Notes under the pieces: generated by a model
What the model was told of the DNA's origin: nothing
The model's database searches: none
The model's input: the letters and a program-made list of their open reading frames with translations, nothing else
Assembly: GCF_900185725.1 (NCBI RefSeq)
Contig: NZ_FYAU01000029.1
Location: forward strand, 434,001 to 498,000
Reading direction: 5' to 3'
DNA length: 64,000 bases
Source: Stappia sp. TSB10P1A
GTDB taxonomy: Bacteria; Pseudomonadota; Alphaproteobacteria; Rhizobiales; Stappiaceae
Translations under genes and position numbers: made by a program
Shown here: positions 5,312 to 36,655 of the stretch, piece after piece
Layout: every line of letters begins with the position of its first letter
How positions within the stretch are numbered: position 1 is the first letter of the stretch

Positions 5312-5321
5312 GGTGTGGGGC

Positions 5322-10501: not shown

Positions 10502-10516
10502 CCGGGCGTCACGCCG

Positions 10517-11839: not shown

Positions 11840-11841
11840 GG

Positions 11842-12780: not shown

Positions 12781-12882
12781 TCCGATCATTTCTACGCCGC
12801 TGCGGCCGCCGCGCCAAGGTCGGTTGGCGTCGGCGTCCATAGCAATTGCGACCTTGCCGCGCCCGCCCCTATAGTCCGGCGC

Positions 12883-14741: not shown

Positions 14742-14898
14742 GGCCGGCGCTTGTTCCACCACCTTTGGCCGGTGATGCCGAATGCACGACCACTTGAGGA
14801 AATGTTAACCATGACGGTCGAGACTTGCGAGCGTGCCCGCCCGTGGCGTGGTGCCGGGGCGCAATGCGACCCGTGAGACCAGCAGCGGCTTCCCGAGC

Positions 14899-19353: not shown

Positions 19354-20459
19354 GCGGCGGGCTCCGCGATGCCGGCCAGCGGACTGCCGCCGCGCGCGGC
19401 GATGGCGCGGAACAGCCCGTCGATACCACAGGCGGTATAGGCGGCGGAGTCCTCGGTGTATTCGGCGTTCTGCCGGGGCAGGGTGAAGAGATGGTGCGCG
19501 TGCTCGGGAAACAGCGAGCCCGGCATGGTGGTGACGGCGGTGCGGAAGCCCGCCTCGCGCACGATCCGCGGCTCGCGCTCGCCCGACAGGGACGGCGGGC
19601 CGTAGGGATAGGCGAAATGCGGCACCTCGCGGCCGAGCAGCGTTTCCAGATAGGCCTTGTTGTCGGCAATGTCGGAGCGCAGGTCGGCCTCATTGAGCAG
19701 GGCGAGGGCGCGGTGGGTCGTGGTATGGGCGGCGATCTCGATCAAGGGATGCCGGTCGGCGGCGACGACGCCGGCCTCATCCAGAATGTGCCGGTCGATC
19801 GCATCGGCAAGCGAGATGCCGTGGGAGCGGAAGGTCGGGGCCAGCATCTCCGCCCGGCGGAAGTCGCCCCAGACCCAGGCGATGGCGCGCCGCAGGCCGC
19901 CGATCTTGCTGTCGAGGTCCGGGCACAGGAAGCGCGCGTCCATCGCCTCGATCTCGATCCGCTCGCGGGCGCGGAACAGTTCGGTAAGGCCGAGCCACCA
20001 GGCGTTGAGGGTGCGGGTCGTCATTTCGGTCGGCACATAGATCGTTGCCGGCGCGGCATATTTCTCCAGCACCGGCAGCGCCAGGTCGATGTTCGAGCGA
20101 TAGCCGTCGTCGAAGGTCAGCACCGCGAAGGGGCGCGGGTCGTTCTCAGCCAGCCGGCGGATCGCCTCGTCCAGCGTCACCACCTCGCGGCCGCGCTGCC
20201 TCAGTCCGGCCAGGATCCGCTCGAAGTCGTCGATCCGGCATCCCTGGTCGAGCTGGGCGCGGGGATCGCGGGTGAAGTCGTGGAACATCAGGATGACGCC
20301 GGAGCCGCCATAGCGCCGGGCGAGGAGGCGGGTGAGGCCGCTGTTCGCCAGCAGCCGCAGGCCGAGCGTCTTCGCCCGCCGGCGGGTGAGGTCAGCGAGG
20401 TTCGGTCGCGGCCGTGTCGCGGGGCGTGCCTGCACGGTGTCCTCGGTCGTTGCCGTCAT
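19350..20459 (-). CDS. Polysaccharide deacetylase (NodB/CE4 fold)
   Basis: 369 residues. The NodB-homology domain starts near residue 50 (GVILMFHDFT). Catalytic motifs: AVLTFDDGYRSN (Asp-Asp metal and base) and the metal His pair in EIAAHTTTHRALALL. A long insertion of about 90 residues lies between them, as in several envelope-polysaccharide CE4 proteins. There is no signal peptide in the first 45 residues, only an Arg-rich stretch, so it may act on cytoplasmic lipid-linked intermediates (inference). Probably N-deacetylates a sugar of the locus polymer. Upstream gene of the minus-strand pair with the GT4 gene. Confidence 0.85.
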   Translation of the reverse strand: MTATTEDTVQARPATRPRPNLADLTRRRAKTLGLRLLANSGLTRLLARRYGGSGVILMFHDFTRDPRAQLDQGCRIDDFERILAGLRQRGREVVTLDEAIRRLAENDPRPFAVLTFDDGYRSNIDLALPVLEKYAAPATIYVPTEMTTRTLNAWWLGLTELFRARERIEIEAMDARFLCPDLDSKIGGLRRAIAWVWGDFRRAEMLAPTFRSHGISLADAIDRHILDEAGVVAADRHPLIEIAAHTTTHRALALLNEADLRSDIADNKAYLETLLGREVPHFAYPYGPPSLSGEREPRIVREAGFRTAVTTMPGSLFPEHAHHLFTLPRQNAEYTEDSAAYTACGIDGLFRAIAARGGSPLAGIAEPAA

Positions 20460-20759
20460 CTTCTTGCCATCCTGTCATGCAGGAAGTCTGCGCCGCGCAT
20501 CGCGCTGCCGTCGCCCGCGAAGCTAGGATCAAGGTATGAACGGCCGGTTGCCGCTGGCCGGACAGGCCAGCGTTTTCGGCCCCATGGTAAAGCAAGATTG
20601 AAGCGGGGTCGCCGGACCGCCCTGTCCTTTTGCGGCAAGCTCCGATTAACTCAACCGGCCGGAAACGCGCCCGCACGACTGGCGAAACGGCCCCGAACAC
20701 GGGCGATTAACATGTTTCCGCTATCAGGCGGGGTAGACTCACCGCCTAGGACAAGCTCC
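20460..20759. promoter_or_regulatory. Divergent promoter region within polysaccharide locus
   Basis: 300 bases between the divergent deacetylase and GT4 genes, holding the promoters for both directions. TTAAC-containing, relatively AT-rich boxes occur near 20646 and 20707. AGGCGG/CCGCCT arms at 20726-20731 and 20742-20747 can pair just before the plus-strand ribosome site. A 21-codon ORF at 20536 was seen but has no support. No operator can be assigned. Confidence 0.4.
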
Positions 20760-22007
20760 ATGAACCCGCCCAGGCCGATGCGCATCTTGATGGCTTGCGC
20801 TGCCTTTCCGCCCTACATGGACGGCGGCGGGCCGATTTCCGCCCTGATGCTCGCGCGCATGCTCGCGGGCGAGGGGCATGTGCTGCGCGTCGTCAATGCG
20901 GCGGACGAGGAGGGGCTGGAGCGCCTCGACGGGTTCGAGGTCCGGCGCATCCGCCCGACCAATGTCTACTGGAACTATCGCCGGCCCCGCCCGACCTGGA
21001 AGAAGGCCGTCTGGCACCTGCTGGAAAACGGCAACCCGCGCGCCTTCCAGGTGATGCGCCGCGAGATCGCCGACTTCCGGCCCGATGTGCTGCTGACCGA
21101 CAGTATCGAGAACATCAACGTCGCCTCCTGGGCGGCGGCCCGCTCGCTCGGTGTGCCGGTGGCGCATACGCTGCGCAGCGCCTTCCTGCTGTGCTGGCGC
21201 GGCGTCATGCAGAAGCCCGACGGACGCAACTGCGAAAGCCAGTGCACCGGCTGCTGGCTGACCTCGCTCGGCAAGCGCCATTTCACCCGCTATGTCGATG
21301 CGGTCTGCGGCGAGAGCCGGGAGGTGATCGAACGGCATGTCTCGGCCGGCTATTTCCCCAATGCCTTGAGCGCCCGCATTCCCGGCGCCGTCGACAGGGT
21401 TGCCGGCGCCGCGGCCCGCCCCTTCCCGGCGGGCCGTCCCTTGCGCGTCGGCTTTCTCAGCGTCCACACGCCGTTCAAGGGGCTGCAGGTGCTGGGCGAG
21501 GCGGCCTGTGCCGCCACCGGCCGGCCGGTGGACTATGTCATCGCCGGCACGGCGCCGGACGGCAGCGAGGCACCGGCGCTCACCCGCGCCTTTCCCCCCG
21601 AGCGCACCCGCTTCCTCGGCTGGAGCGATCCGGCGGCGTTCTTCCCGCAGATCGACCTGCTGGTGTTCCCCTCGCTCGGCCGCGAGGCCTTCGGCCGTGT
21701 CGCCATTGAGGCCTTCGCCCATGGCGTGCCGGTGCTCGGCTCCGATCTCGGCGGCATCGCCGAGACGGTGGCCGACGACCATAACGGCTTCCTGTTCCCG
21801 CCCGGCGATGTCGCCGCGCTCGCCGCGCTGATCGACCGGGTCGCCGGCGACGGTGCGCTTTACGAGCGGCTGTCGCGGGGGGCGCTGGCCTCCGCCGAGC
21901 CCTATTATCGGCCGCATGTCGCCGCCGCCTATACGAGGTTCCTGACGAGTGCCATCGACCATGCGGCGGCGCGCCTGGAGCGCGGGCGCGAGCAGGTGGC
22001 CTCATGA
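20760..22007 (+). CDS. Glycosyltransferase family 4
   Basis: 415 residues from ATG 20760 (TAGGA about 9 bases upstream). N-terminal GT-B domain: MRILMACAAFPPYMDGGGP then ISALMLARMLAGEGH. It contains a Cys-rich insertion (NCESQCTGCWLTSLGKRHF, residues about 160-180) that could bind a metal, as in several GT4 enzymes of exopolysaccharide clusters. C-terminal donor domain: PLRVGFLSVHTPFKGLQVLGE and the EX7E motif EAFGRVAIEAFAHGVPVLGS. It overlaps the flippase gene by 4 bp. Donor and acceptor sugars unknown; cytoplasmic assembly of the repeat unit is inferred from context. Confidence 0.87.
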   Translation: MNPPRPMRILMACAAFPPYMDGGGPISALMLARMLAGEGHVLRVVNAADEEGLERLDGFEVRRIRPTNVYWNYRRPRPTWKKAVWHLLENGNPRAFQVMRREIADFRPDVLLTDSIENINVASWAAARSLGVPVAHTLRSAFLLCWRGVMQKPDGRNCESQCTGCWLTSLGKRHFTRYVDAVCGESREVIERHVSAGYFPNALSARIPGAVDRVAGAAARPFPAGRPLRVGFLSVHTPFKGLQVLGEAACAATGRPVDYVIAGTAPDGSEAPALTRAFPPERTRFLGWSDPAAFFPQIDLLVFPSLGREAFGRVAIEAFAHGVPVLGSDLGGIAETVADDHNGFLFPPGDVAALAALIDRVAGDGALYERLSRGALASAEPYYRPHVAAAYTRFLTSAIDHAAARLERGREQVAS

Positions 22008-23386
22008 TCGGGCGGATCCGCGCCATTATCGCCAGCAAGGGAGGTCGCAAGATCTTCTGGGCGCTGGTCAGCCGGGGCAGCAGCACGGTGCTGAGCTTCG
22101 CCCTGCTTCTGGTGGCGAGCCGGGTGCTCGATACCGACGAATACGGCCTCTACATCTTCCTGTTCTCGATCGGCTCCTCGCTCGGGCTGATCGCCGTCTT
22201 CGGCCAGCAGGTCCTGCTGATGAAGCACTTCCGCGTGGCCGAGCATGTGCGCGGGGAGACCAACCAGCCGATCCTCTTCTACAACGCGCTGTGGCTCGGC
22301 GTCGGCTGCGGCGGCCAGGTGCTGGCGGCGCTTGTCGTCTGGATCTTCTCCGACCGGCTCCCCTATCCTTACGACCACCTGCCGGTCGCCCTGCTGTTCG
22401 GGGCGATCTTCACCTTGAGCGAATATCTGCAGAGCTATTTCATCGTCCATGCGCGCATCGTGCTGGCCCTGGTGCCGCGCGAGAATCTCTGGCGCCTGGT
22501 GTCCAGCCTGACGCTGGTGGGCCTTGCCTGGGCCGGCCTGCTGCACACCGGCGCTGCGGCGATCGAGATCGTCACCGGCCTGCTCGCGCTGATGGTCGGC
22601 TACCAGTTCGTCCGCTTCGTCGGCCGGGAGGGGCTGTCGTTCCTGGGTTCCGCCGAGGCCCGGGCGCAGGTCCCCTCGCGCGCCTGGCGCCGCGAGACGC
22701 TGACCTTCTCGGCCAACGGCTTCTTCTCGGCCGCCGCGGTCTATTTCGAGACGATCCTGATCGGCATCGCCATCGGCCTGGACGTTGCGGCCTTCTATTT
22801 CGTCGCCACCCGCATCGCCTCCCTGTTGATCCTGCCGGTGCTGGCGATCGACACGGTCGGCGTGCCGCTGATTTCCGCCCGCTTCCAGGAGCGGGACTAT
22901 GCCGGCGCGCAGAAGCTCGTCTCCATGCTGTCGGCGGGCAGTTTCGTGCTGGCCTTCATCGGCGGCCTCGCCCTGCTGGTGGTCGGGCCCTTCGTGCTGC
23001 ATCTGTTCAATCCCGCCTTTGTCGAGCATTTCCCGGTGCTGGTGCTGCTGTCGATCGGGGCGATTGCCCATGCCTTCTTCGGGCCCGGCACCTGGCTGAT
23101 GATGATCGGCGGCGGCGAGGCCTATCTGCTCAAGGCGCGCAGCCTGGTGTTCGCGGCCTATCTCGGCCTGCTCTTCCTGCTGGCCAGCCAGTTCGGACCG
23201 GAAGGCGTCGCCATGGCCGGCGTCATCGAACTGGTGACGCTGCACCTGATCTCGCGCCGCTGGGTGCTGCGCAAGTGGCAGGTCGACAATGCCGCCACCT
23301 CGTTCCTGGTCCTGCGCTGGCGCGAGAGGCGGGCGACGGGCGAGGCCGCTCGGCAATTGGAGGCGGGGGACAATGGCCGTCTCTAG
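22004..23386 (+). CDS. Wzx-like polysaccharide flippase
   Basis: 460 residues, with about 12-14 hydrophobic helices. The N-terminus SRGSSTVLSFALLLVASRVLDTDEYGLYIFLFSI is the typical opening of the MATE-like oligosaccharide flippase superfamily (small/polar residues, then R-x-L and EYG-LYIF). It moves the lipid-linked repeat unit across the inner membrane before polymerisation. Start ATG 22004 overlaps the GT4 stop; the gene end overlaps the GH5 start by 14 bp. With the Wzy-like and Wzz-like proteins it makes a complete Wzx/Wzy-type set, although no priming transferase or outer-membrane exporter is in the window. Confidence 0.87.
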   Translation: MIGRIRAIIASKGGRKIFWALVSRGSSTVLSFALLLVASRVLDTDEYGLYIFLFSIGSSLGLIAVFGQQVLLMKHFRVAEHVRGETNQPILFYNALWLGVGCGGQVLAALVVWIFSDRLPYPYDHLPVALLFGAIFTLSEYLQSYFIVHARIVLALVPRENLWRLVSSLTLVGLAWAGLLHTGAAAIEIVTGLLALMVGYQFVRFVGREGLSFLGSAEARAQVPSRAWRRETLTFSANGFFSAAAVYFETILIGIAIGLDVAAFYFVATRIASLLILPVLAIDTVGVPLISARFQERDYAGAQKLVSMLSAGSFVLAFIGGLALLVVGPFVLHLFNPAFVEHFPVLVLLSIGAIAHAFFGPGTWLMMIGGGEAYLLKARSLVFAAYLGLLFLLASQFGPEGVAMAGVIELVTLHLISRRWVLRKWQVDNAATSFLVLRWRERRATGEAARQLEAGDNGRL

Positions 23387-24425
23387 GATCATAGCCGGCG
23401 GCGTTCTCGCCGCCTTGCTGCTTGGCGCGCTGCCCGTGGGCGCGGCCGAGTGCCTGCGCGGCGCCAATGCGGCCGGCGCCGAGTTCGGCGAGGCGCTGCC
23501 CGGCGAGTTCGGCCGTCACTACATCTATCCCTCAGCCGAGACCCTGCGCTACCTGCGCTCGAAGGGGATGAATGTCGTCCGCCTGCCGTTCCGCTGGGAG
23601 CGGCTGCAGAAGCGGCAATTCGCCGAGTTCGATGCGACCGAGCTGACGCGCCTGCGCGAGACGGTCGCGGCCGCCACCGGGCTCGGCATGACGGTCGTGC
23701 TCGATCCGCACAATTTCGCCATGTACTACCAGAAGACCATCGGCAGCGACGATGTGCCGATTGCCGCCTTCGCCGATTTCTGGCGTCGTCTCGCGCCGCT
23801 CTTTGCCGGGCGCGACGACGTCATCTATCTGCTCATGAACGAACCGGCCTTGATCACGGCGCAGCACTGGCTGCCGTCCGCCAATGCGGCCATCGCCGAG
23901 ATCCGCGCCGCCGGCGCCGACAATTTCATCCTCGTGCCGGGCACCATCTGGACCGGCGCCGTTCACTGGTATGCCGATCAGCCGGGCGGCTCCAATGCGC
24001 AGGTGATGCGCGGCGTCATCGACCCGCTCAATCACTACGGCTTCGACATCCACCAGTATCTCGACGACGACTATTCCGGCACCAGGACCGCCTGCAACAA
24101 GGTGGACGAGGCGATCGCCGCGCTGGAGCGCGTCACCGCCTGGATGGAGGAGACCGGCAACCGCGCCTTCCTCGGCGAGTTCGGCGGCCATGCCCGCCCC
24201 GATTGCTATCGCGGCCTTGCCCGCCTCGTCGGCCTTGTCAACGCGCGCCCCGACATCTGGGCCGGCTGGGCGATCTGGGCCGCCGGCGACTGGTGGGGCG
24301 ACCATCCGCTCTCGGTGCAGCCGCTCGAGGACGGGCTCGACCGGCCGCAGATGGTGGCGATCGAGCATTTCATCCCGCGCCGGACAGAGCAGGAGCGCAC
24401 ATGCGAGGCGTTGCGCCGCCGATGA
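23373..24425 (+). CDS. Secreted GH5 endoglycanase (cellulase-like)
   Basis: 350 residues from ATG 23373, with GGAGG 8 bases before. N-terminal signal: residues 4-24 hydrophobic, ending GAAECLRG, so exported. The GH5 barrel follows: GMNVVRLPFRWERLQ, MTVVLDPHNFAMYY, the acid/base Glu in VIYLLMNEPALI, YGFDIHQYLDDDYSGT and the nucleophile Glu in RAFLGEFGGHARP. Placed inside the polysaccharide locus it probably trims or releases the locus polymer or controls its length rather than feeding on plant cellulose (inference). Its end overlaps the next gene by 25 bp. Confidence 0.9.
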   Translation: MAVSRIIAGGVLAALLLGALPVGAAECLRGANAAGAEFGEALPGEFGRHYIYPSAETLRYLRSKGMNVVRLPFRWERLQKRQFAEFDATELTRLRETVAAATGLGMTVVLDPHNFAMYYQKTIGSDDVPIAAFADFWRRLAPLFAGRDDVIYLLMNEPALITAQHWLPSANAAIAEIRAAGADNFILVPGTIWTGAVHWYADQPGGSNAQVMRGVIDPLNHYGFDIHQYLDDDYSGTRTACNKVDEAIAALERVTAWMEETGNRAFLGEFGGHARPDCYRGLARLVGLVNARPDIWAGWAIWAAGDWWGDHPLSVQPLEDGLDRPQMVAIEHFIPRRTEQERTCEALRRR

Positions 24426-26215
24426 CGACGAGGGACCCCGCACCGCGCCTGCCGGTCGCCTTTGCCGGCACCTTCGGTCTGCTGGACATGGCCGGCGGCG
24501 ATGTCGGCGTGGTCGTTTGCGAGCCCTGGGGCTACGAGGCGCTCTGCGCCCGCCGCGCCCTGCGCGTGCTGTCCGACCGCCTGTCGGCGCTGGGCTGTCC
24601 GGTGCTGCGCTACGACCAGCCCGGCGCGGGCGATTCGCTCGCCGGCACGGGAGAGATCGAGGGCCTCGCCCCATTCGAGGCGGCGCTCGCGGCCGCCTGC
24701 GAGACGCTGCTGCGGCACACCAAGGCCACCCGCGTCGTACTGCTCGGCCTCGGGCTCGGCGCGGCCCTGTGCCTGCGCCATGCCGGGACCCATCCGCAAG
24801 GCATCGCCGGCCTCGTGCTGCTGGCGCCGCCGGTCAAGGGGCGCCTCTGGCTGCGCGAGACCCAGGCCCGCGCCTCGATGATCGGCGAGATCACCGGCTC
24901 GGCCCCCGCACCCGGCCCCGGCGAGGCGCTGCAGATCGCCGGCCTGCCCCTGTCCGAGGCGCTTGCCGGCGAGCTTCGCGGCCTCGACCTCGGCTCCCTG
25001 ACGCCGCCGGCCTGTCCGGTGCTGGCGCTGGCGCGCGAGGGACGCTCCGCGGAAATCGCCCTGTGCGAGGCGCTGGCCGGCGCCACCGGCGGCGAGGCCG
25101 GCATCATGGCCGGCTATGACGACCTGATGAGCGACCCGACCGGCTCGATCGTGCCGGAGGCCGATTTCGCGAAGGTCATGTCCTGGCTGCGCCGCCTCCT
25201 GCCGGAGGGCGGTCTGGCGGGCCGTGACGACCTTGTGCCGGCCGCCGCGCCGGCCGCTCTCGCCGCTGCGGACTTCCAGGAAACCCTGTGCCTGTTCGGC
25301 CCGCGCGAGGCCCTGGTCGGGGTCTGGTGCGAGCCCTCCCGTCCGGATCCGCAGGCCCTGCCGGTGATGCTGCTGAATGCCGGCGGCAATCCGCGCGCCG
25401 GCTGGGCCCGCGGCGCGGTGGAACTCGCCCGCGCCCTTGCCATGGCCGGCATCCCCTCCTTCCGCTTCGACCTTGCCGATATCGGCGACAGCCGGCCTCT
25501 GCCCGGCGGCCCCGCCATCGTGCACTACGATCCCGCGCTTCCGGCGCAACTGTCCGCCGCCATCGATCTGTGCGAGGCGAGGGGCGGCGGCAGCCGCGTC
25601 GTCGTCACCGGCAATTGCGGCGGCGCCTATCTGGCGCTGAACGGCGCGGTGACGGACCCGCGCGTCGCCCAGGTGGTGGCGGTCAATCTCCAGCGCTTCC
25701 TGTGGGACCCGCGCGACGATGTCGCCGAGGTGCTGCGCTTCGGTCACAGTTCGGCGAGCGAGTATGGCCGCAAGCTGTTCAACCTGGAGAAATGGAAGCG
25801 GGTGCTGGCCGGCAAGTCCCACCCGATCGGCATCCTGCGCAATCTGGCGATCCGGGCCTGGCGGGAGAGCGAGCGGCGTCTTGCGCCGTTCCTGTTCGGG
25901 CTGGCGCCGTTCTCGCGGCTCTACCGGCAGGTGCATGCCAACCTGGCGACCCTGACCCTGCGCCGCGTCGGCGTCGTCCTCGTCTTCAGCGAGGGCGATC
26001 CCGGCCTTGCCGAGCTGGAGACATTCTTCGGCGAAGGGTGGAAGCGGCTCGCCGCCTATCCGAACATCGCCGTCGTCCTCATTCCGGACGCCGACCACAA
26101 CCTCACGCCGGCGGCGGCGCGGCTGGCGCTGCGCGACCAGGTGATCGCGGCGTCCCTGGGAACCCGTGCCGGGGCGGGAGAGGCCACGGCGGCGGAGGTT
26201 CAGCCCGCCGCGTAA
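24401..26215 (+). CDS. Tandem alpha/beta-hydrolase protein with altered nucleophiles
   Basis: 604 residues from ATG 24401 (AGGAG 5 bases upstream); ATG 24422 is an alternative. Two alpha/beta-hydrolase halves are visible. The first (about 10-270) has PWGYEALCARRALRVLSDRL and LRYDQPGAGDSLAG, but its nucleophile elbow reads LGLGLG, with Gly118 where Ser is expected. The second (about 290-595) has VMLLNAGGNPRAGWARG and the elbow GNCGG with Cys406 as possible nucleophile, then a late Asp and His (IPDADHN). This resembles exosortase-associated hydrolase pairs fused into one chain. It is translationally coupled to the GH5 gene, suggesting polysaccharide acyl-group or transfer chemistry, but the reaction is unknown. 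Confidence 0.7.
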   Translation: MRGVAPPMTTRDPAPRLPVAFAGTFGLLDMAGGDVGVVVCEPWGYEALCARRALRVLSDRLSALGCPVLRYDQPGAGDSLAGTGEIEGLAPFEAALAAACETLLRHTKATRVVLLGLGLGAALCLRHAGTHPQGIAGLVLLAPPVKGRLWLRETQARASMIGEITGSAPAPGPGEALQIAGLPLSEALAGELRGLDLGSLTPPACPVLALAREGRSAEIALCEALAGATGGEAGIMAGYDDLMSDPTGSIVPEADFAKVMSWLRRLLPEGGLAGRDDLVPAAAPAALAAADFQETLCLFGPREALVGVWCEPSRPDPQALPVMLLNAGGNPRAGWARGAVELARALAMAGIPSFRFDLADIGDSRPLPGGPAIVHYDPALPAQLSAAIDLCEARGGGSRVVVTGNCGGAYLALNGAVTDPRVAQVVAVNLQRFLWDPRDDVAEVLRFGHSSASEYGRKLFNLEKWKRVLAGKSHPIGILRNLAIRAWRESERRLAPFLFGLAPFSRLYRQVHANLATLTLRRVGVVLVFSEGDPGLAELETFFGEGWKRLAAYPNIAVVLIPDADHNLTPAAARLALRDQVIAASLGTRAGAGEATAAEVQPAA

Positions 26216-28677
26216 GGTACCGGCGCGCCGCCGAGCGGCGCGACCTGCCCGCGCGGCCGTGCCTCGCCCGGCGCCCCGGCCCGCCGGCGCAGCTCGACGC
26301 GCTTCACCGCTCCGGGAGCGAGATGGAACCCGTTGTCGAGCGCCAGGAACGCCTCGTCGCGGATCGCGACGCTCTGCGCCACCCTGTCGGTCGACAGGTG
26401 CAGGCACCAGCCGCCCTCCGGCGTGGCGACGACCTCGGCGGCAACCTTCGCCCCGCGCGCCGACGCCTTGCGCCCGAGCGGGAAGTGGAACGCCTCGTCC
26501 AGCACCGTTCCGGTCTGCGGATCAAGCGCCCGCACATGCACGCAGTCATGCGACGGCGGGCCGAAGCGGAAGGCGAGTGTCGTGTCGAAAAAGGCGCCGA
26601 TCAGCCGCGTCGCCGGCAGGCTCAGGCTGCCATGCGCGGGCATCTCCACCACCTCCGCGCCGCTCGCCACCGCCATATGCCCCTCGCGCAGGCAGGCGAT
26701 CTCGAGCCGCAGGGGACGTGCGTCGGGCCCGTCGTTCTGCAGGTGGATGTCGAGCCCGTTGGTGCCCTCGTCGGTCACGGTCAGGCGCAGCGGCGCGAAC
26801 GCCCGGCGCAAGCCATGCCAGGCGGATTTCGGCGTGCCGTCATGGGCGATGACGCCCCAGCCGGCGCCCGGCATCAGGTCCTGGAAGGTCCACACCAGCG
26901 CTCCGCCGCAGCCCGATCCCTGGCGCCGCCATTCCGCGAATGTCGCCTCCATCACCTCGGCGACGGCCGCCCGGCCGTGGTCGAGATAGGCCGCCGGATC
27001 GCCGTAGCGCAGGTCGAGCGGCTCGATCCCGTAGAGCTCGCGCAGATAGTGGTCGCGCACGTCCTCGAAATCCCAGCCGACATCCCGGTCGCGCGGCACC
27101 CCGCGTTTCCAGTCCGGATGGTGGCAGGGGGCGAGCTCGCAGACCGCGCCGGGCTCCGGCACGTTGGAAAAGGCAAGGCATTCGCCGGCAAAGCGCACAT
27201 TTGCCCGCCTTGCATCCTCCAGCGGCCGGCGATAGGCGCCGACGCCGTAGTAATGGGCAATGCCCGCATTCGGCGAAAACGGCATGGCCCCGCCGCTCGG
27301 CGAGTTCGCCACATAGGGCACGTCGGGCCGCGCGCTTGCCGCCGCACCGGGCAGGATCTCCTCGCTCAAGGCTCCGCGCCAGCGCTCTTCCGGCAGGCCC
27401 ATCATCGCACCCTGCTGGTGCATCTCGCTGCCGCCGCAGATCACCGCGAGCGAGGGCGAGGCGCTGCTTGCGGCCAAAAGGTCCGCCGTCTCGCGGGCGA
27501 CTTTCGCCGCGAAGTCGGGATCGCTCACCGGATAGTCGAAATTGGCGAAGGGCAGGTCCTGCCACACGAGAAGGCCGAACTCGTCGCACAGCTCGAAGAA
27601 GGCCCGGCTTTCCGGCGCCATCGTGCCGCCGATCCGCAGCATGTTCATATGTGCATCGCGCGCCAGCTCCAGCCAGGGGCGATAGGCCTCGACCGTGCCG
27701 GGCAGGGCGCAGATGTCGGCGCTGGTCCACACCGCGCCGCGGCAGAACACCGGCACGCCGTTGACGAGAAGGGCGAAACCGTTGCCGTCCGGCCCCCGGT
27801 CGACCTCGATCCGCCGGAAGCCGGTGCGTCCCAGCAACCGGTCGTGGCCGCCGCCGACGAGCCGGACCTCGTGCAGCGCGGGTGTTCCGTGCGTGTGCGG
27901 CCACCAGGGGTCGATATCGGGAAGCTCCAGCGTCGCCGCGAGCCTGCCGTCCGCCTGTGCGTGCAGCGGCGCCTCCACACCGGCGCAGGCAATATGCTCG
28001 CCGCTCGCAAAGGCCGCGCCGGGCCGCAGCGAAACAGTGAGCTCTCCGGTGCCGTCCGCGCGCAAGGCGGCGCGGATCGAAAGATCGTGGAGCAGGATGT
28101 CGGACGCAGCAGCCAGCGTCATCGCCCGCCAGGGCCCGACCGCATGCACGCTCGGGCACCAGCCCGGCATGTGGCCGAGCAGGGTGCTGCGCACCATCCG
28201 AAGGCCCGGCTCGTCGACGAGCCGCGTCCGCCAGCGGGCGCGGGGTCCCTTGCGGGCGAAATGCGGCGTCAGCGCGCGAAAGCAGAACACCAGCTCCGCC
28301 GGGCCGTCGAGGTCGAACTCGACCTCCAGCGGCTGGTACATGCTGTCGGAGGCGAGCAGCGGCGCGCCGTCGATCCAGGCTTCGCAGACCGTCGCCAGCC
28401 CGTCGCAGCGCAGGACGTGGCGCCCGGCCTGCGCCGGTTCGATCCGGCAGCGATACCAGACGTCCTTGTCGTGCAGCGGCGTCGGATCTTCGCGCGAAAA
28501 CCGCCCCGCCGCCTCCAGCGCCGCCGCCGCCGTTCCCGGCACCATTCCCGGAACCCAGTCGGCGTCCGCGTCCATGTCGGCGGGCGTTGTCCAGGCATCC
28601 GCCGGGGTCACGCAGAGCCGCCAGTCGGCGCCGGCAAGGCGGTTGGCGGCTGCGGGCAGGGTGGCAAGGTCGATCAT
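26200..28677 (-). CDS. Glycoside hydrolase family 2 (beta-mannosidase-like)
   Basis: 825 residues from ATG 28677, with GGGGGAG 5 bases upstream. N-terminal jelly-roll sugar-binding domain (VWYRCRIEPAQAGRHVLRCDGLATVCEAWIDG in two blocks), an Ig-like domain, then the TIM barrel (AHMNMLRIGGTMAPESRAFFELCDEFGLLVWQDLPF in parts). Probable acid/base Glu418 in VICGGSEMHQ (GH2 proteins usually have NE) and probable nucleophile Glu499 in FAGECLAFS. No signal peptide, so cytoplasmic. It is the last gene of the carrier-protein operon, 40 bp after DUF1839, and overlaps the convergent hydrolase gene by 16 bp. Substrate unknown; beta-mannoside is a guess from family similarity. Confidence 0.82.
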   Translation of the reverse strand: MIDLATLPAAANRLAGADWRLCVTPADAWTTPADMDADADWVPGMVPGTAAAALEAAGRFSREDPTPLHDKDVWYRCRIEPAQAGRHVLRCDGLATVCEAWIDGAPLLASDSMYQPLEVEFDLDGPAELVFCFRALTPHFARKGPRARWRTRLVDEPGLRMVRSTLLGHMPGWCPSVHAVGPWRAMTLAAASDILLHDLSIRAALRADGTGELTVSLRPGAAFASGEHIACAGVEAPLHAQADGRLAATLELPDIDPWWPHTHGTPALHEVRLVGGGHDRLLGRTGFRRIEVDRGPDGNGFALLVNGVPVFCRGAVWTSADICALPGTVEAYRPWLELARDAHMNMLRIGGTMAPESRAFFELCDEFGLLVWQDLPFANFDYPVSDPDFAAKVARETADLLAASSASPSLAVICGGSEMHQQGAMMGLPEERWRGALSEEILPGAAASARPDVPYVANSPSGGAMPFSPNAGIAHYYGVGAYRRPLEDARRANVRFAGECLAFSNVPEPGAVCELAPCHHPDWKRGVPRDRDVGWDFEDVRDHYLRELYGIEPLDLRYGDPAAYLDHGRAAVAEVMEATFAEWRRQGSGCGGALVWTFQDLMPGAGWGVIAHDGTPKSAWHGLRRAFAPLRLTVTDEGTNGLDIHLQNDGPDARPLRLEIACLREGHMAVASGAEVVEMPAHGSLSLPATRLIGAFFDTTLAFRFGPPSHDCVHVRALDPQTGTVLDEAFHFPLGRKASARGAKVAAEVVATPEGGWCLHLSTDRVAQSVAIRDEAFLALDNGFHLAPGAVKRVELRRRAGAPGEARPRGQVAPLGGAPVPYAAG

Positions 28678-28717
28678 CTGGCTCCCCCGGGTCCGGCCGG
28701 GCCGCGTGGCCGCAGCG

Positions 28718-29713
28718 TCACGCCGCGCGGGTGCCGGCGCGCGCCGCAAGCTTCGCCTCCAGCCCGGCCATCAGCGTGTCCCAGGCCGTTGCTGCCGGCG
28801 TCAAGGCCTCGCCGAGCCCGGCGAAGCGCTTGCGCGCCAGCGCCCTTGCAAGCTGGAACTGCAGCGTCTTGCAGCATTCGGAGATGGCGCGTGCCGCACC
28901 GGCTTCCGCCGCTAGGCCGCCGTCCGGCGCGAGCCAGTCGAGATGGCTTGCCGCCAGCTCGAAATTGGCGCCGGCCTGGCGCAGCGTGTTGAAGGCGTAT
29001 TTGTGGAAGGCCTCGAAGGGCCGCTCCGACAGCGCCTCGATCTCGGCGGCAAAGCCCGATGCATAGGCGGCAAAGGGATTGTCCTTGGGCCGCCGCGCCA
29101 GATGTCCGGCAAGCAGCCGCCAGGCGATCTCGCGCGGGTTGCCGGCCGGGGCGGTCTCGGGGAATTTCGCGAATTCGGTATAGGGCAGGAACGGCAGCGG
29201 CTGGGCCTGGTCGCCGCGCTGGAACACCCCGTCGAAATCCTCGCCCTCCAGCTCGAAGAAGCCGGCATTGTGGAAGTAGCGCAGGCGCCTGGCGCCTTCG
29301 TCCAGCGCGGTGATCGCCACCGTCGTCTTGCCGTGCTCGATGCGGTAGCTGACGCCCTGCGTGTCGGGCAGGAAATAGCTGTCGACCTCGACGAGGCAGA
29401 GCCGGCCACGGGCGATCTGCGTCGCCACATGCTGCTCGACCGGCTCGTAGACGGCAAGTTCCGTCGCCCGGATGCCGTAGAGCGTCTCCAGGTCCTCCAG
29501 CGGCACCTTGAAGAAGGTGAACTGGTCGCCCTCGAAATCCTGCGTCACGGTGAAGCCGAGCATTGCCTCCACCGGCAGGCCGAGCGCGTGCAGCACCTCG
29601 ATCCACAGGTCGACATAGCAATTGGTCTCCGGCCACATCCTGCCTGCGTCATGCAGCGGATGCGGCCGGTAGCCGTCGGCCCGAAGGGCGGCGAGCCTGT
29701 CGAATGCGGGCAT
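28718..29713 (-). CDS. DUF1839 family protein
   Basis: 331 residues from ATG 29713, 2 bp after the ligase gene. Characteristic stretches: MWPETNCYVDLWIEVLHALGL, DFEGDQFTFFKVPLEDLETLYGI, CLVEVDSYFLPDTQGVSYR and FHNAGFFELEGEDFDGVF. Cys, Asp/Glu and His residues in NCYVD, EVDSYFLPD and IEHGKT could form a Cys-His-Asp type active site, as in papain-fold or transglutaminase-fold transferases, but this is inference. DUF1839 genes are known neighbours of amino acid:[carrier protein] ligases, so a role in moving the amino acid off the carrier, or in making the acceptor, is plausible. Confidence 0.8.
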   Translation of the reverse strand: MPAFDRLAALRADGYRPHPLHDAGRMWPETNCYVDLWIEVLHALGLPVEAMLGFTVTQDFEGDQFTFFKVPLEDLETLYGIRATELAVYEPVEQHVATQIARGRLCLVEVDSYFLPDTQGVSYRIEHGKTTVAITALDEGARRLRYFHNAGFFELEGEDFDGVFQRGDQAQPLPFLPYTEFAKFPETAPAGNPREIAWRLLAGHLARRPKDNPFAAYASGFAAEIEALSERPFEAFHKYAFNTLRQAGANFELAASHLDWLAPDGGLAAEAGAARAISECCKTLQFQLARALARKRFAGLGEALTPAATAWDTLMAGLEAKLAARAGTRAA

Positions 29714-29715
29714 GG

Positions 29716-30627
29716 TCAGCCCCACAGCGCCTTGCGCACGTCGGCCGGCCAGTCGGCCGTCTCCAGCCCGTGCCGGGCGAACAGCGCGAGCGCGATCCGC
29801 TCCAGGCCGAAGCCGACACAGGCCGTATGCGCGGTCGCACCATCATGGGTCGTCAGGCCCCAGGTCGTGCCGAAATGGTCCTGGTGGTAGTTGAAGCTGA
29901 GGCAGGCGGTCTTCTTCGCCGACGAGGTCACCGGGATCAGCAGCTCGAATTTCAGCTTCTGCTCGCGCTGGCTGTTGCCCATCATCTTGCCGGCGCGGCC
30001 GAAGAACGGATCGTTCGCCGTGTCCAGCTCGACGTCCAGTCCGACGGCGGAAATCAGCGCCTGGCCGCGCTCCATCCAGTCCTCGCGGAACTCCGTCACC
30101 TGGTCCGGCGTGCCCATGCGCACGAATTCGCGCATGCGGAAGAGCTGCATGCGGGCCGGGTCCTTCGAGGGTTCGTGGCGGAAGCAGTAGGACTGCAGGT
30201 CGAACAGCCCGCCGCCCTCCGGCAGCGGCCCGCGCTTGGCGATCACCGGATAGAGCGGGTAGCAGGCCGCCGGGGTCAGCACCACGTCGGTCGCCTTCTG
30301 CCCTTCCGTCCAGTCGCCGCCCTCGGCGATACATTGCAGCAGGTTGGCGTGGTCGAGCTCGCAGCCGCAGAAACTGTGCACCGTGCCGGCCAGTTGCGGG
30401 AAGCTCTTCATGTAGCCGGACCCTTCGAAATGGGTGCGGTTCATGCCCGGCGGGAAGCGGATCACCTCGGGCCGCGCATCGGCCGGCGCGTGGACGTCGA
30501 TCAGCTTTTCGAAGCGCGCGATCACGTCCTCGAAGGCGCCGCTGCGGCCATAGAGGCCGTCGATGCCGGTGTCGATCAGCAGGCCGGCGGCGAGCAGCCG
30601 GTCGAGCAGCGAGCTCTGCATGTCCAT
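29716..30627 (-). CDS. Amino acid:[acyl-carrier-protein] ligase (atypical seryl-tRNA synthetase)
   Basis: 303 residues. A class II aminoacyl-tRNA synthetase catalytic domain without the tRNA-binding arm of SerRS. Motif 2 appears as [27 protein letters not shown] and motif 3 as [20 protein letters not shown] (each seen in parts). Zn-binding side chains are likely provided by Cys in GCELDH and AACYPLYP and by a Glu. In Bradyrhizobium such proteins activate glycine or alanine and load it on the phosphopantetheine arm of a small carrier protein rather than on tRNA (Mocibob and colleagues). The cognate carrier is encoded two genes upstream. Which amino acid is used here cannot be read off reliably. 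Confidence 0.9.
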
Positions 30628-30639
30628 TCTGTCCTCCCC

Positions 30640-31821
30640 TCAGCCGAAAAGGCTGGTGTCCTGCTTGTGCACGAGCAGCATGGTCGACGTGTTGCCGAGG
30701 ATGCGGTCGTTGGAGATCATCAACTGGGCCGAATGCGCGTCGCGCAGGTGCCGGCCGAGGCTGTAGGGCGTGCCGTTCTTGTAGCCGAGGATGCCGCAGA
30801 TCAGCATGCAGTGGTTGATGATCGCCAGGATCGTCTGCGAACTGGCGATCTTCAGGTTGTTGATGGCGACGGCGAAGCTCATCGACGACAGCTTGTCCTC
30901 GTCCTGGCGGGCTTCCTCGTATTTCTCGACGGCGGCGACGATGCTGGCCTTCACCCCCTGCAGCAGGGTCGAGGCCTCGGCCAGCCGCAGCGCGCCGGGC
31001 GGCGCCTGGTCGGGTGTGCGGCGTGCGGCCGCGCGCACGAAGGCCTGGGCCCGGGCGAAGGCGTCGGCGGCGATGCCGTACCACACCGCGCTCCACAGGA
31101 TATGCGCATGGGCGAGCATCGACTGTGCGGCGATCTCGGCGAAGGGCCGGGGCAGGATCTGCCTGGCCGGCGCCTCGCCCTTGAACAGGAAGCCGTCGGA
31201 GCAGGTGCCGCGCATGCCGAGCGTGTCCCACACATGGGTCTGCTCGAGCGTGTACTGGTCCTTCAGGAAGACGGTCATCACCTGGTCGCTGGAGGCGGCC
31301 TGGGGATGTGCCCGCGAGGTGATCAGGATGGCGTCGGCGTCGAGGCCGTAGGAGATGACGGTGGCGTCCTTCTGCAGCCGGCAGGTGTCGCCCTCGACCT
31401 CGATCGCGCAGATCGAATTGCGCAGGTTGCCGCCGATGCCGCCTTCGGTGGTGGCCGAGCCGAGCAGCAGTTGCTCGCTCGCCACCCTGGCCATGAAGCC
31501 GCGGTGCCAGTCGTCGCCCTCGCTGTGGCTGACCAGGCTCGACGCCTTGATGTGGTGCATGGCGAAGATCATCGCGGCCGAGGCGCAGGCCTGGCCGAGG
31601 ATCGCACAGAGTTCGGCGATCTGCGCCACCGTGGCGCCCTCGCCGCCGAGATCCACCGGGATCTGGCAGCCGAGCAGCCGTTCGTTGCGCATCGCCTCGA
31701 CCGCTTCGCGCGGGAACCGCGCCTCGCTGTCGACCGCTTCCGCATGGGCGGCGGCGATGGTTGCGACCCGGCGCATGCGCTCGCAGAGCGTCGTCGCCAG
31801 AGCGGAGCCGAGCGCGTTCAT
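30640..31821 (-). CDS. Acyl-CoA dehydrogenase-like flavoprotein
   Basis: 393 residues from ATG 31821, overlapping the carrier-protein stop (ATGA). Acyl-CoA dehydrogenase fold: N-terminal helical domain (ERLLGCQIPVDLGGEGATVAQIAELCAILGQ in parts), mid beta domain (LLLGSATTEGGIGGNLRNS, DTLGMRGTCSDGF) and C-terminal helical domain (KIASSQTILAIINHCMLICGI, SLGRHLRDAHSAQLM). Position between the carrier-protein and ligase genes suggests it oxidises or otherwise acts on a carrier-bound aminoacyl thioester, as flavoproteins do for prolyl-carrier proteins in pyrrole biosynthesis. That role is inferred; a classical fatty-acid substrate is less likely in this operon. Confidence 0.85.
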   Translation of the reverse strand: MNALGSALATTLCERMRRVATIAAAHAEAVDSEARFPREAVEAMRNERLLGCQIPVDLGGEGATVAQIAELCAILGQACASAAMIFAMHHIKASSLVSHSEGDDWHRGFMARVASEQLLLGSATTEGGIGGNLRNSICAIEVEGDTCRLQKDATVISYGLDADAILITSRAHPQAASSDQVMTVFLKDQYTLEQTHVWDTLGMRGTCSDGFLFKGEAPARQILPRPFAEIAAQSMLAHAHILWSAVWYGIAADAFARAQAFVRAAARRTPDQAPPGALRLAEASTLLQGVKASIVAAVEKYEEARQDEDKLSSMSFAVAINNLKIASSQTILAIINHCMLICGILGYKNGTPYSLGRHLRDAHSAQLMISNDRILGNTSTMLLVHKQDTSLFG

Positions 31822-32078
31822 CACGCCACCCGCTCTTGCGGGGCGAGCTCGGCGACCGCCGAAGAGATCGCGCCGATGCTGGCGAAGGTCTTGCGGTTGA
31901 GCATCGTCTCCGGGAATTCGATGTCGAACCGCTCCTCCAGCGCCAGCATCAACTGGACGGAGGCGAAGGAAGACAGGCCGGCGGCATAGAGATCGGCGTC
32001 GTCGGCAAGGGTGGCGACATCCACCGGAAGCTTGCCGTGGCTGGCGATGATCTCGCGCACATCCTCGATGATTGACAT
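31821..32078 (-). CDS. Small acyl/aminoacyl carrier protein
   Basis: 85 residues from ATG 32078 (AGGAG 8 bases upstream); the longer reading to 32168 adds non-conserved sequence. Four-helix carrier-protein pattern, acidic overall, with the phosphopantetheine attachment site DLYAAGLSSFASVQLML (Ser about residue 34-35) and a downstream FDIEFPETML helix. The motif is LSS rather than the DSL of fatty-acid ACP, as seen in the carriers used by amino acid:[carrier protein] ligases. First gene of the five-gene operon. It probably shuttles an activated amino acid between the ligase, the flavoprotein and DUF1839. Confidence 0.9.
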   Translation of the reverse strand: MSIIEDVREIIASHGKLPVDVATLADDADLYAAGLSSFASVQLMLALEERFDIEFPETMLNRKTFASIGAISSAVAELAPQERVA

Positions 32079-34283: not shown

Positions 34284-35102
34284 TCAGGCGGGCGGCAGCG
34301 CCGCCAGGTCGCGGTGGCCGACATGGGCCGCGAGCTCCCCGCGGCCGATCTGACCCTGGCGCAGGGCCAGCCAGTCGGCGAGCGCCGTATCCGCCGCGCC
34401 ACTGTCCCGCGCCGCCTCGGCCCAGCCCCCCACCAGCATCTTCAGGAAATCTGTTTCGCCGGGCAGCGCCTGCCAGTCGGCAGCGCCCTCGTGCGTGCGA
34501 TATCCCTGCGCGCGGAAGGCGGCGGCCGCATGCGCATGCGCGCCCGGCCCCAGCGCCGGGCCGAAGCCCTTGTCGCGGCCCTGATGGGTCCGCAGCGCCG
34601 CATGCACCGTCTCGTCGAAGGGGTGCTCTGGTGCCAGCGACTGCCGCCCGTCATAGGTCAGCATGGCGAGGAAGGGCAGGGCGCGGCGGGCCAGCGTCCG
34701 CGCCAGCCGGTCGATCCAACCGGCCGAGACGAGGTCGAGAAAGGCCGATGTCGTCACCGCGTCGATGCCGGACAGCAGCTCGGCGGAGAGGCCCCGCGCC
34801 AGGTCGGCGGCGACGACCGCGGCCGCCAGCCCGTCCCGCTCGGCCATCTCGCGGGCCAGTGCCAGCAGCGCCGGATCGTGTTCGGCGAGCCGCCAGCTCG
34901 TGGCAAAGCGCAGATGCGGATGCAGCGCCCGCATCGTCGCGCCGGTCCCCGCGCCAAGGTCGAGGATGACCAGTGGCGCGTCGCCCCTGGCCTTGGCGCG
35001 TCTCTCCAGATGATCGAGAAAGGCCTTGCGCACGGCCGTGTTGCGGGCGCGCAGATCCGCCGGCTCGCGCGCCGACAGCCACGCGCCGGAAAAGCCGCTC
35101 AT
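34284..35102 (-). CDS. Class I SAM-dependent methyltransferase
   Basis: 272 residues from ATG 35102, overlapping the glycosyltransferase stop (ATGA). SAM-binding motif I is PLVILDLGAGTGATMRALHP; the acidic loop WRLAEHDPALLALAREMAE and ADLARGLSAELLSGIDAVTTSAFLDLVS (in parts) follow. Family members occur with PTPS-like and Zn-dehydrogenase genes in alphaproteobacteria. It is the last gene of the four-gene minus-strand operon and would methylate the product or an intermediate of that pathway. The substrate is unknown. Confidence 0.83.
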   Translation of the reverse strand: MSGFSGAWLSAREPADLRARNTAVRKAFLDHLERRAKARGDAPLVILDLGAGTGATMRALHPHLRFATSWRLAEHDPALLALAREMAERDGLAAAVVAADLARGLSAELLSGIDAVTTSAFLDLVSAGWIDRLARTLARRALPFLAMLTYDGRQSLAPEHPFDETVHAALRTHQGRDKGFGPALGPGAHAHAAAAFRAQGYRTHEGAADWQALPGETDFLKMLVGGWAEAARDSGAADTALADWLALRQGQIGRGELAAHVGHRDLAALPPA

Positions 35103-36169
35103 CGCCCGATCTCCGCGATCAGCGCGGCGAGCCGCCGTGCCTGCTCCGGCCAGCCCGGCAGGCCCTGCGCATGGGCGCGCGCCGCCTGGGCCAGGCTCTG
35201 GCGCAGCGCCGCGTCTTCGGCGAGCCGCCGGATCGCCGCGCCGACAGAAGCCGCATCGCCCGCCTCGCACAGGATGCCCGCCGCCGCCGGCACGGTGTCG
35301 CGCACCGCGCCAGCGCCGGTCGCCACCACCGGCAGGCCGTGCGCCATCGCCTCGACAAAGGCCATGCCATAGCCCTCGTAGAGCGTGGTCAGCACGAACA
35401 GGTCCGCCTGGGCATAGAGCGCGTCGAGCGCCGCGCGGCCGAGCGCGCCATGCAGCCGCACCCGCTGCGACAGGCCGAGCCGTTCGATGATCGCGCGCAC
35501 GCTCGCCGCATGGGCGCGATCGAACTCGCCGCTGCCGGCGATGTCCAGCGTCACCGCCGGGTCGTCGATCTGCGCCAGCGCGGCCAGCAGCGTCGGGTGG
35601 TCCTTGCGCGGCACCAGCGAGCCGACCGACAGCAGGCGGAACGGCTCGCCCGGCCGCCGGACCCGTGCCACCGGCGGCGCGGGCAGTACGAGGCCCGGCT
35701 CCAGCACGCTCACCTTCGCGCTTGGCACGCCGAATTCGGTGGTGACGGCGGCGGCGGTCGCCGGGCTCGTCGTCACCACATGGCGGGCCAGCGCCAGCGC
35801 GCGCCGTTCGCTCGCCGCAAGCTCCGCCGCCCGCGCCGGCGGCAGGCCGCTCTCATGCGCCAGCGGATGGTGCACCAAGGCGATCAGCCGCAGCCGCTGC
35901 GCCTGCGGGGCGGCAATGGCGTCCATCACGCCGAAGGCCAACCCGTCGATCATCACCGCTTCGCCGTCGGCGAGCCCGGAAAGCAGCGCCGCGCCCGCCT
36001 CAAGCGTCGCCGGGGAGGGCGCCGGGTAGCCCTCGCCCAGCGTTGCCGCGCTCACCTGCGTCCCCGTCGCCGCCAGCGCCGCCAGCAGCTCGCGGTCATA
36101 GACATAGCCGCCGGTCGGCGTCTCCAGCCGGCCGGGATAGAGGAAGGTAAGGCGCCCCGCCGCCATCAC
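35099..36169 (-). CDS. Glycosyltransferase family 4
   Basis: 356 residues. GT-B: N-terminal FLYPGRLETPTGGYVYDREL (glycine-rich loop) and IALVHHPLAHESGL; C-terminal RLLSVGSLVPRKDHPTLLAAL and the EX7E-type TLYEGYGMAFVEAMAHGLPVV. It overlaps the PTPS-like gene by 4 bp at its 5' end and the methyltransferase gene by 4 bp at its 3' end, so the three are strictly coupled. A glycosyl group is probably added to a small metabolite, possibly pterin-like, rather than to a polymer, since no export or polymerisation genes are present in this operon (inference). Confidence 0.85.
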   Translation of the reverse strand: MMAAGRLTFLYPGRLETPTGGYVYDRELLAALAATGTQVSAATLGEGYPAPSPATLEAGAALLSGLADGEAVMIDGLAFGVMDAIAAPQAQRLRLIALVHHPLAHESGLPPARAAELAASERRALALARHVVTTSPATAAAVTTEFGVPSAKVSVLEPGLVLPAPPVARVRRPGEPFRLLSVGSLVPRKDHPTLLAALAQIDDPAVTLDIAGSGEFDRAHAASVRAIIERLGLSQRVRLHGALGRAALDALYAQADLFVLTTLYEGYGMAFVEAMAHGLPVVATGAGAVRDTVPAAAGILCEAGDAASVGAAIRRLAEDAALRQSLAQAARAHAQGLPGWPEQARRLAALIAEIGR

Positions 36170-36564: not shown

Positions 36565-36655
36565 CTGTCGGGGTCTCCTGCTGGAACTGGCGGCCGGTCC
36601 GGCCGGGGGGAGGGGCGAGCGTGTCGGCGGGATCTTGCGGAAGAATGCGCCCTCT

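Follow-up and report, generated by a model that had tools for sequence, protein, structure and literature searches.

A conserved aminoacyl carrier protein operon of Stappia and other bacteria, proposed to join small amino acids to amines through a DUF1839 protein with the fold of CcbD

What becomes of an amino acid that a relative of the tRNA synthetases has loaded onto a carrier protein? The purpose of carrier aminoacylation by such enzymes was raised as a question in 2010, and no answer was found in the passages of the literature searched. The question is posed by an operon in a 64,000-nucleotide stretch of Stappia sp. TSB10P1A, a marine bacterium related to those of root nodules (contig NZ_FYAU01000029.1, positions 434,001 to 498,000; this whole stretch is called the window below). 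The original prediction for this DNA described a five-gene operon that passes an activated amino acid to an acceptor, possibly a sugar, and called the purpose of the loading unknown. This last remark overlooked that almost the same pathway had been predicted in 2010: Iyer et al. (2010; PMC2922099), in a note in proof, list around the ligase an acyl carrier protein (ACP), a redox enzyme, the conserved protein Atu2574, a glycosidase and ‘liposaccharide’ genes; they predict that the aminoacyl group is oxidized and that Atu2574 links it by an amide bond to the amine of a surface sugar, and they remark on a similarity to the logic of mycothiol. We consider it reasonably probable that the operon encodes a pathway in which a small amino acid is coupled, via a carrier protein, to an amine, probably that of an amino sugar.

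The operon genes were confirmed to lie tightly packed on one strand (32078-26200, minus), overlapping or separated by gaps of 12–40 bp. Together with a convergent neighbour, a tandem alpha/beta hydrolase, they are as follows.

32078-31821, minus strand: aminoacyl carrier protein (PF00550; NF005480 at 114 bits against a cut-off of 72), phosphopantetheine Ser37 in YAAGLSS
31821-30640, minus strand: flavoprotein of acyl-CoA dehydrogenase (ACAD) fold (PF02771/PF00441), with a 1-bp overlap with the carrier stop
30627-29716, minus strand: amino acid:[carrier protein] ligase (NF005479 at 509 bits against a cut-off of 357), 12 bp from the flavoprotein gene
29725-28718, minus strand: DUF1839 protein (PF08893, 423 bits), with a GTG start inside the ligase gene by 10 bp
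28677-26200, minus strand: GH2 glycosidase (PF22666), 40 bp from DUF1839
24422-26215, plus strand: tandem alpha/beta hydrolase (Pfam hydrolases; TIGR03100/TIGR03101 below cut-off), convergent with the operon

The carrier had been recognized from its GLSS site, and Ser37 together with the PF00550 and NF005480 matches bears this out. An in-frame ATG lies just 3′ of the GTG start of DUF1839. All five genes originally described are present, but the set probably has six members, the hydrolase having been missed.

The locus is a real and strongly conserved operon. When GTDB genome contigs were searched with an alignment of five DUF1839 sequences, at least 594 pattern matches came up, of which at least 585 were confirmed as relatives. 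The best 80 loci were compared; these lean toward near relatives of the window, the closest DUF1839 among the matches listed being that of Stappia sp. WLB 29 (93% identical). The order flavoprotein–ligase–DUF1839–GH2 is kept on one strand in 80/80 of them and the carrier lies upstream in 79/80, the remaining locus starting at a contig end. Because near relatives share gene order by descent, evenly drawn samples of 385 genomes of the class and 398 genomes of the phylum were also used, some of which supply contigs among the 80 as well. The class sample has DUF1839 in 5/385 genomes and a ligase over the cut-off in 10, and all five DUF1839 genes adjoin a ligase (Fisher p 4e-9). The phylum sample has DUF1839 in 16/398 genomes (18 genes) and a ligase over the cut-off in 28, and 16/16 DUF1839 genomes have a copy directly beside the ligase, the two extra genes being second copies (Fisher p 2e-21; neither value is corrected for phylogeny). 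In both samples DUF1839 was thus never met without the ligase, whereas the ligase does occur without DUF1839. In the 19 loci from sampled genomes (window included) the carrier and flavoprotein genes precede the ligase in 19/19 and GH2 follows in 18/19; one ligase, that of genome G557, has a single in-frame TAA. A comparison of gene neighbourhoods had been proposed for the original prediction, with a lack of GH2 and DUF1839 beside the ligase as the contrary outcome, and what it found was conservation, in every one of the best 80 loci and in all but one of the sampled ones.

For the loading step, both the carrier and the ligase have solved relatives. The nearest solved chains to the carrier are 4h2w_C (‘Aminoacyl carrier protein’) and 2jq4, which is Atu2571 and is identical to the window carrier over the matched stretch; these matches relate the window operon to the solved ligase–carrier pair, and the best solved relatives of the ligase are 4h2w and 3mey (Bll0957). 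From its position relative to the carrier Atu2571 we take Atu2574 to be DUF1839. Of archaeal-type seryl-tRNA synthetase (SerRS), the 303-aa ligase covers just the catalytic half (residues 115-300 onto 311-504 of PRK00960), and the original call of a ligase without a tRNA arm proved correct, as the NF005479 protein has a SerRS-like core lacking the tRNA-binding domain. Three candidate Cys/Glu/Cys Zn ligands, C122, E167 and C270, placed on the window ligase via the 4h2w alignment, are present in 155/155 ligase rows, a row count that, like those used below (DUF1839 139, carrier 122, GH2 99), includes overlapping loci of the same gene. Bll0957 prefers Gly. The substrates listed for ligases of this type are Gly, Ala and Ser (PMC9437257), and charging of a carrier protein, not of tRNA, is reported for ligase relatives (PMC2922099, PMC9437257); by orthology with these the window ligase is expected to load the carrier. 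The gene bll0957 and its ACAD neighbour bll0958 are listed in a PhaR proteomics table (PMC10888616) and Atu2573 is given as a network hub gene (PMC11941606).

Transfer from the carrier would fall to DUF1839. The AlphaFold2 model (37 sequences, predicted local distance difference test score (pLDDT) 91.8; 4/40 loci were left out of the alignment because of stops or frame) matches CcbD with Z 19.1 (root mean square deviation 3.6 Å over 289/335 residues; Foldseek E 2.4e-4), AziU3/U2 with Z 18.0 and CtaG with Z 17.8, further entries following down to 15.0. This group stands apart, the next structural match having Z 7.4; other full-length folds were rejected, all remaining rows among the structures found by Foldseek lying at Z ≤7.4. 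AziU and CtaG belong to the azinomycin and closthioamide pathways, respectively, and are biosynthetic enzymes, not proteases. CcbD and LmbD work through a cysteine thioester and couple (alkyl)proline from its carrier, as an amide, to a thiooctose amino group, CcbD docking its carrier via arginines 312, 316 and 324 against carrier glutamates (PMC12945683). In a published classification DUF1839 itself is a papain-like family, its triad being C-(T/S)-H, and from genomic context it was suggested that it might take part in acyl-CoA-dependent glycan processing at the cell wall (PMC10318531).

Cys36 is present in the window and in 132/139 DUF1839 rows, and H131, H152 and D163 are invariant, with Thr or Ser at 134/135 in the Cys-bearing copies. 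The seven rows without Cys36 come from three genes (genomes G613 and G681 and Cupriavidus metallidurans CH34); in each case the Cys-less copy adjoins the ligase and a second DUF1839 with the Cys is found in the same genome or record (the two-copy genomes are represented by loci L159, L194 and L157 with L158). This pattern suggests that the Cys is important, or else that active chains pair with inactive ones. Arg294 is kept in 139/139 and Arg298 in 129/139 DUF1839 rows and Glu48 of the carrier in 122/122, which resembles the CcbD–carrier interface by residue pattern, not by superposition. We propose that DUF1839 is a papain-like protein of CcbD/CtaG-type fold that would act as a carrier-dependent, amide-forming transferase via Cys36. 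Four observations weigh against this proposal. Identity to the CcbD, AziU and CtaG structures is only 9–16%, so that the link is by fold. The 37-sequence profile, run against the PDB with E up to 10, found no CcbD, CtaG or AziU, and DUF1839 is therefore claimed to work like CcbD, not to be a member of its sequence family. The order of the triad differs between the descriptions available (C-(T/S)-H in PMC10318531 versus Cys-His-Glu for CcbD). Lastly, the three ligase-side copies without Cys36 imply that the DUF1839 protein of the operon is not always the catalyst.

It is improbable, in our view, that DUF1839 is instead a hydrolase or a peptide-bond former with an amino acid or protein as acceptor, for example elongation factor P (EF-P), the GH2 gene being there by coincidence. 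The papain-like fold does also take in hydrolases (PMC10318531), and EF-P/EpmA/EpmB-like genes, named by sequence recognition, lie upstream in 44/80 loci (e.g. L050, L052 and L096). Among the loci that have it, this adjacency is confined to those of Rhizobium and allied genera and to metagenome-assembled genomes, and EF-P was set aside as acceptor because the module has no match in the window, in the Azospirillum-like G280 and G358 or in the betaproteobacterial stretches. The strong fold neighbours of DUF1839 are, moreover, the biosynthetic enzymes named above, and a GH2 gene that recurs in nearly all sampled loci speaks against coincidence.

With DUF1839 as the candidate transferase, the flavoprotein would act on the aminoacyl group while it is still bound to the carrier. 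Its AlphaFold2 model (pLDDT 90.3) has an ACAD fold, with Z about 40 to many dehydrogenases and monooxygenases. In an alignment of 41 sequences (30 from the operon, the window and 10 from loci without DUF1839; 9/39 operon sequences were left out) the position of the catalytic Glu of medium-chain acyl-CoA dehydrogenase (MCAD) type is Ile or Val in 41/41, the column being taken from the 7p98 alignment and referring to the MCAD-type position only. Because this base is absent, we hold oxygenation of the aminoacyl group, which was already the proposal of 2010, to be more likely than ordinary alpha,beta-desaturation. Sequence searches leave the choice between the two undecided: in a single-sequence search the best matches are KijD3 and DnmZ (50.9-50.5 bits), in a near tie with butyryl-CoA dehydrogenase (49.9 bits). 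Three points count against oxygenation: the fold alone does not separate dehydrogenase from oxygenase, the profile search ranks dehydrogenases (93 bits for 7p98, and 84 bits) above N-oxygenases (73 bits), and among the genes annotated in the plasmid stretches, for which the gene tables are incomplete, none is called a flavin reductase. That the flavoprotein is an ordinary dehydrogenase, turning for instance an alanyl carrier into a dehydroalanyl carrier, is a possibility to which we give a lesser but real weight; it would fit the proposed pathway in all but the oxidation step, and besides the profile ranking the fold match to ColB1, a dehydrogenase of carrier-bound cysteine (Z 39.6), is in its favour. 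The residues at the usual Glu position and the single-sequence matches speak against it, and Gly as substrate would have no beta carbon to desaturate.

The GH2 enzyme has beta-mannosidases as its nearest solved structures, yet its motifs differ from theirs. In 99 rows, with the window counted twice and positions placed from the beta-mannosidase alignment, both catalytic Glu residues are kept (99/99), the acid/base is preceded by Ser in 97 and by Asn in 2 (an SE motif, not NE), and the mannosidase Trp is matched by Gly in 81, Ser in 13, Pro in 4 and Ala in 1. The window protein carries both the SE motif and the Gly, and by eye no N-terminal signal segment is apparent. Ser before the acid/base has been tied to substituted or C2-modified sugars, and the SE motif, Gly in place of His/Trp and the lack of a signal peptide are shared with the two assayed GH2_14 enzymes, BmGH2_14 and SdGH2_14, which hydrolyse p-nitrophenyl galactoside slowly and have no detectable mannosidase activity (PMC12243196; operon context is not discussed in the passages concerned). 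By motif, then, the window enzyme appears GH2_14-like and apparently cytoplasmic. GH2 is present in 7/8 fetched plasmid stretches with DUF1839; it is absent at the sampled locus L026 and from the R. binae plasmid stretch and is therefore dispensable, which counts against an essential part for it in the pathway. PADLOC gave one GH2 match only, at 39 bits and to part of a long multi-domain model, and a defence system was rejected on this account.

The tandem alpha/beta hydrolase is probably a sixth pathway member, since it is co-conserved with the ligase and the operon. Its halves resemble exosortase-A-associated hydrolases 2 and 1 (matches below cut-off). In the window its 3′ end overlaps that of the GH2 gene by 16 bp; the hydrolase genes of Azospirillum lipoferum and Mycetohabitans rhizoxinica come directly after GH2, share its strand and overlap it by 4 bp. 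A relative is present in 50/80 of the best loci, in 12/19 sampled loci within the fetched stretch (one cut by the stretch end) and in 5/8 plasmid stretches; on the Shinella plasmid it lies about 23 kb from the operon copy. In the class sample, a search with one query protein and at most three candidates scored per genome, so that misses are possible, found a hydrolase match (E 1e-15) in 8/385 genomes; seven of these eight are among the ten ligase genomes (Fisher p 4e-12, uncorrected for phylogeny), and six of the seven have the hydrolase within 4 kb of the ligase, that of G186 being on another contig. At loci L031 and L034 only the carrier, ligase and hydrolase were present of the genes sought.

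What would the acceptor be? A polysaccharide locus does face the operon, as originally noted (14833-26215 with the hydrolase included, mostly plus strand), and contains the following.

14833-24425, mixed strands, mostly plus: Wzx/Wzy-type polysaccharide locus (Wzz/GumC-like, polymerase-like, glycosyltransferases, flippase, GH5; Pfam and NCBIfam)
19350-20459, minus strand: polysaccharide N-deacetylase, HfsH/PgaB-like (TIGR03938 at 40 bits and NF050820 at 31.5 bits, both below cut-off)

The protein of 17006-18178 has no Pfam match and its ‘polymerase’ label is from position alone. The linkage of operon and polysaccharide genes recurs elsewhere and is not general: at least one of seven seed polysaccharide genes lies within 10 kb in 41/80 of the best loci and at least two in 26/80, but none in 39/80. 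Several arrangements were seen (glycosyltransferase–GH5–polymerase–GumC upstream; hydrolase–glycosyltransferase–GumC downstream; hydrolase–GH5–flippase–glycosyltransferase downstream, as in the window), and polysaccharide genes stand beside the operon again in G728 (locus L165), a genome of family f2. One Shinella plasmid bears both an operon copy and a polysaccharide locus, and in the actinobacterium Tsukamurella the ligase lies among glycosyltransferases in a stretch with no DUF1839 match, which we counted in favour of a sugar-linked pathway. These arrangements would be explained if the operon decorated exopolysaccharide: the amino acid or its oxidized form would be attached, prior to export, to an amino sugar in the repeat unit, and the system would be the cytoplasmic equivalent of Alm or Dlt aminoacylation. 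The polysaccharide-deacetylase gene common to the window and Shinella polysaccharide loci and an ArnT-type gene annotated 8 kb upstream of the Mycetohabitans copy fit this explanation as well. We nevertheless regard it as doubtful. The 39 loci without any seed gene speak against it, as does the lack of a polysaccharide cluster in the annotated stretches of the Azospirillum, R. gallicum, Phyllobacterium and R. rhizoryzae copies (stretches of 20–29 kb can miss a distant cluster); the Mycetohabitans stretch has only the ArnT-type gene and an acyltransferase gene, and no polysaccharide cluster.

The plasmid copies bear on the same question. The PLSDB plasmid collection, in which gene tables are incomplete, has 59 records with DUF1839, 12 of them typed conjugative, and the copies are self-contained, one standing beside nif genes, which again tells against a general tie to polysaccharide. 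They would be expected if the product were a diffusible metabolite independent of polysaccharide, an aminoacyl-amine or aminoacyl-amino-sugar in the manner of lincosamides or mycothiol, and the CcbD fold of DUF1839, the likeness to mycothiol logic (PMC2922099) and the MFS transporter genes lying upstream in Phyllobacterium and Shinella fit such a product too. Against it are the recurrent polysaccharide linkage and the lack of any transporter family conserved throughout (an ABC transporter set is found in 22-25/80 loci), and we entertain it as possible without favouring it.

On R. gallicum pRgalIE4872c (L196, conjugative) the five-gene operon follows nifHDKENX-fdxB. The Shinella plasmid (L195) carries, in the polysaccharide locus at 14504-21562, a second cassette that recalls exosortase-A-associated genes: an alpha/beta hydrolase (relative of that in the window), an ACP, an AMP-binding ligase, a type III pyridoxal phosphate enzyme and an ATP-grasp protein.

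From the gene content, conservation, folds and motifs computed here we infer oxidation, transfer, acceptor and the roles of the GH2 enzyme and hydrolase as follows. The ligase would activate a small amino acid with ATP and load it onto the holo-carrier; the ACAD-fold flavoprotein would oxidize the carrier-bound aminoacyl group, likelier by oxygenation; DUF1839 would take the acyl group onto Cys36 and form an amide with an amine, most likely that of an amino sugar, a reaction of the kind that CcbD carries out on the way to celesticetin; and the GH2_14-like glycosidase and tandem hydrolase, to judge from co-conservation and motifs, may act in trimming the glycoconjugate or releasing it. An intermediate of the adjacent polysaccharide may serve as acceptor in some lineages, and its amines could be exposed by the HfsH/PgaB-like deacetylase. 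The idea of an activated amino acid forwarded to an acceptor is thus strengthened by the DUF1839 fold and by conservation, and it accounts for the observations better than the alternatives tested; its sugar part is weakened in so far as the polysaccharide linkage is not general, and acceptor and product stay at the level of prediction.

Several known systems share parts of this scheme. The neighbourhood of Iyer et al. (2010) is the closest, with the same ACP, redox enzyme, SerRS-like ligase, Atu2574 and glycosidase and the same proposed reaction, but in the passages concerned no structure of Atu2574 is given and no hydrolase is named (PMC2922099); the CcbD-type fold, the GH2_14-type motif, the hydrolase partner and the genome counts are new here. 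The DUF1839 fold, the conservation of catalytic residues and the counts support the 2010 prediction, and in the parts of the literature searched no test of the operon and no link between DUF1839 and CcbD were found. Lincosamide synthetase (LmbC/LmbN-CP/LmbD; CcbD) likewise combines an activating enzyme, a carrier and a papain-like Cys condensing enzyme; it uses a non-ribosomal peptide synthetase A-domain where the operon has an aminoacyl-tRNA synthetase (aaRS)-like ligase, and the flavoprotein, GH2 enzyme and hydrolase are extra here. CtaG and AziU3/U2 share the full-length fold of DUF1839 (Z 15-18) and belong to other pathways. AlmEFG and Dlt transfer a carrier-borne amino acid to a glycan, but with other ligase and transferase families, and the transferase here is predicted to be soluble. 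The Bll0957 ligase and its carrier (3mey, 4h2w) have in common with the window the ligase core, the three candidate Zn ligands and a dedicated carrier; the sampled Bradyrhizobium-like loci differ in having no DUF1839 and no GH2, with a GNAT-like neighbour instead.

Ligases with other partners were seen at several further loci. At six Bradyrhizobium-like loci (L030 and L172-L176; the genus is guessed) flavoprotein and ligase genes are followed by this GNAT-like gene, not by DUF1839; the gene has no Pfam match, was named by eye and may possibly encode an alternative transfer enzyme, and weak relatives of it occur in the Shinella polysaccharide stretch. Loci L035, L036 and L041 have divergent aaRS-like ligases (about 33% identical, below the cut-off) near an MBOAT-like gene, and at L036 and L041 the set is a carrier (by eye), ligase, GNAT, MBOAT and a DltD/SGNH-like protein (by eye, no Pfam match), and these resemble a Dlt operon in which an aaRS ligase stands in for DltA. 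On a Priestia plasmid (L201) the carrier, ACAD-like and ligase genes are followed by those for a DMT transporter, an ATP-grasp protein, an alpha/beta hydrolase, an alanine permease and an alanine racemase, and by gene content this is a Gram-positive version with a different partner set.

Elsewhere in the window, cobalamin-biosynthesis-like genes (recognized by eye from translations) at 4124-14741 precede the polysaccharide locus, and a minus-strand cluster at 34284-37681 includes a QueD-like pterin synthase, a glycosyltransferase and a zinc-type dehydrogenase. In searches for promoters and terminators, one promoter-like and two terminator-like sites came up, where shuffled sequence gave means of 0.4 and 2.7.

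More broadly, and tentatively, the operon may be an aaRS-based counterpart of lincosamide synthetase that makes unrecognized amides of an oxidized small amino acid (e.g. N-hydroxyglycyl) and an amino sugar in rhizobia, Azospirillum, Burkholderiales and on plasmids, while other lineages would pair the ligase, often with its carrier or flavoprotein, with GNAT-like, ATP-grasp or MBOAT partners. The fold of DUF1839 makes the old prediction testable, as transfer of a carrier-bound aminoacyl group to an amine via Cys36 with a short list of acceptors, in an operon that is widespread in plant-associated bacteria and also occurs on conjugative plasmids. If the proposal is true, a DUF family would gain a function, and so would GH2 enzymes of unclear natural substrate.

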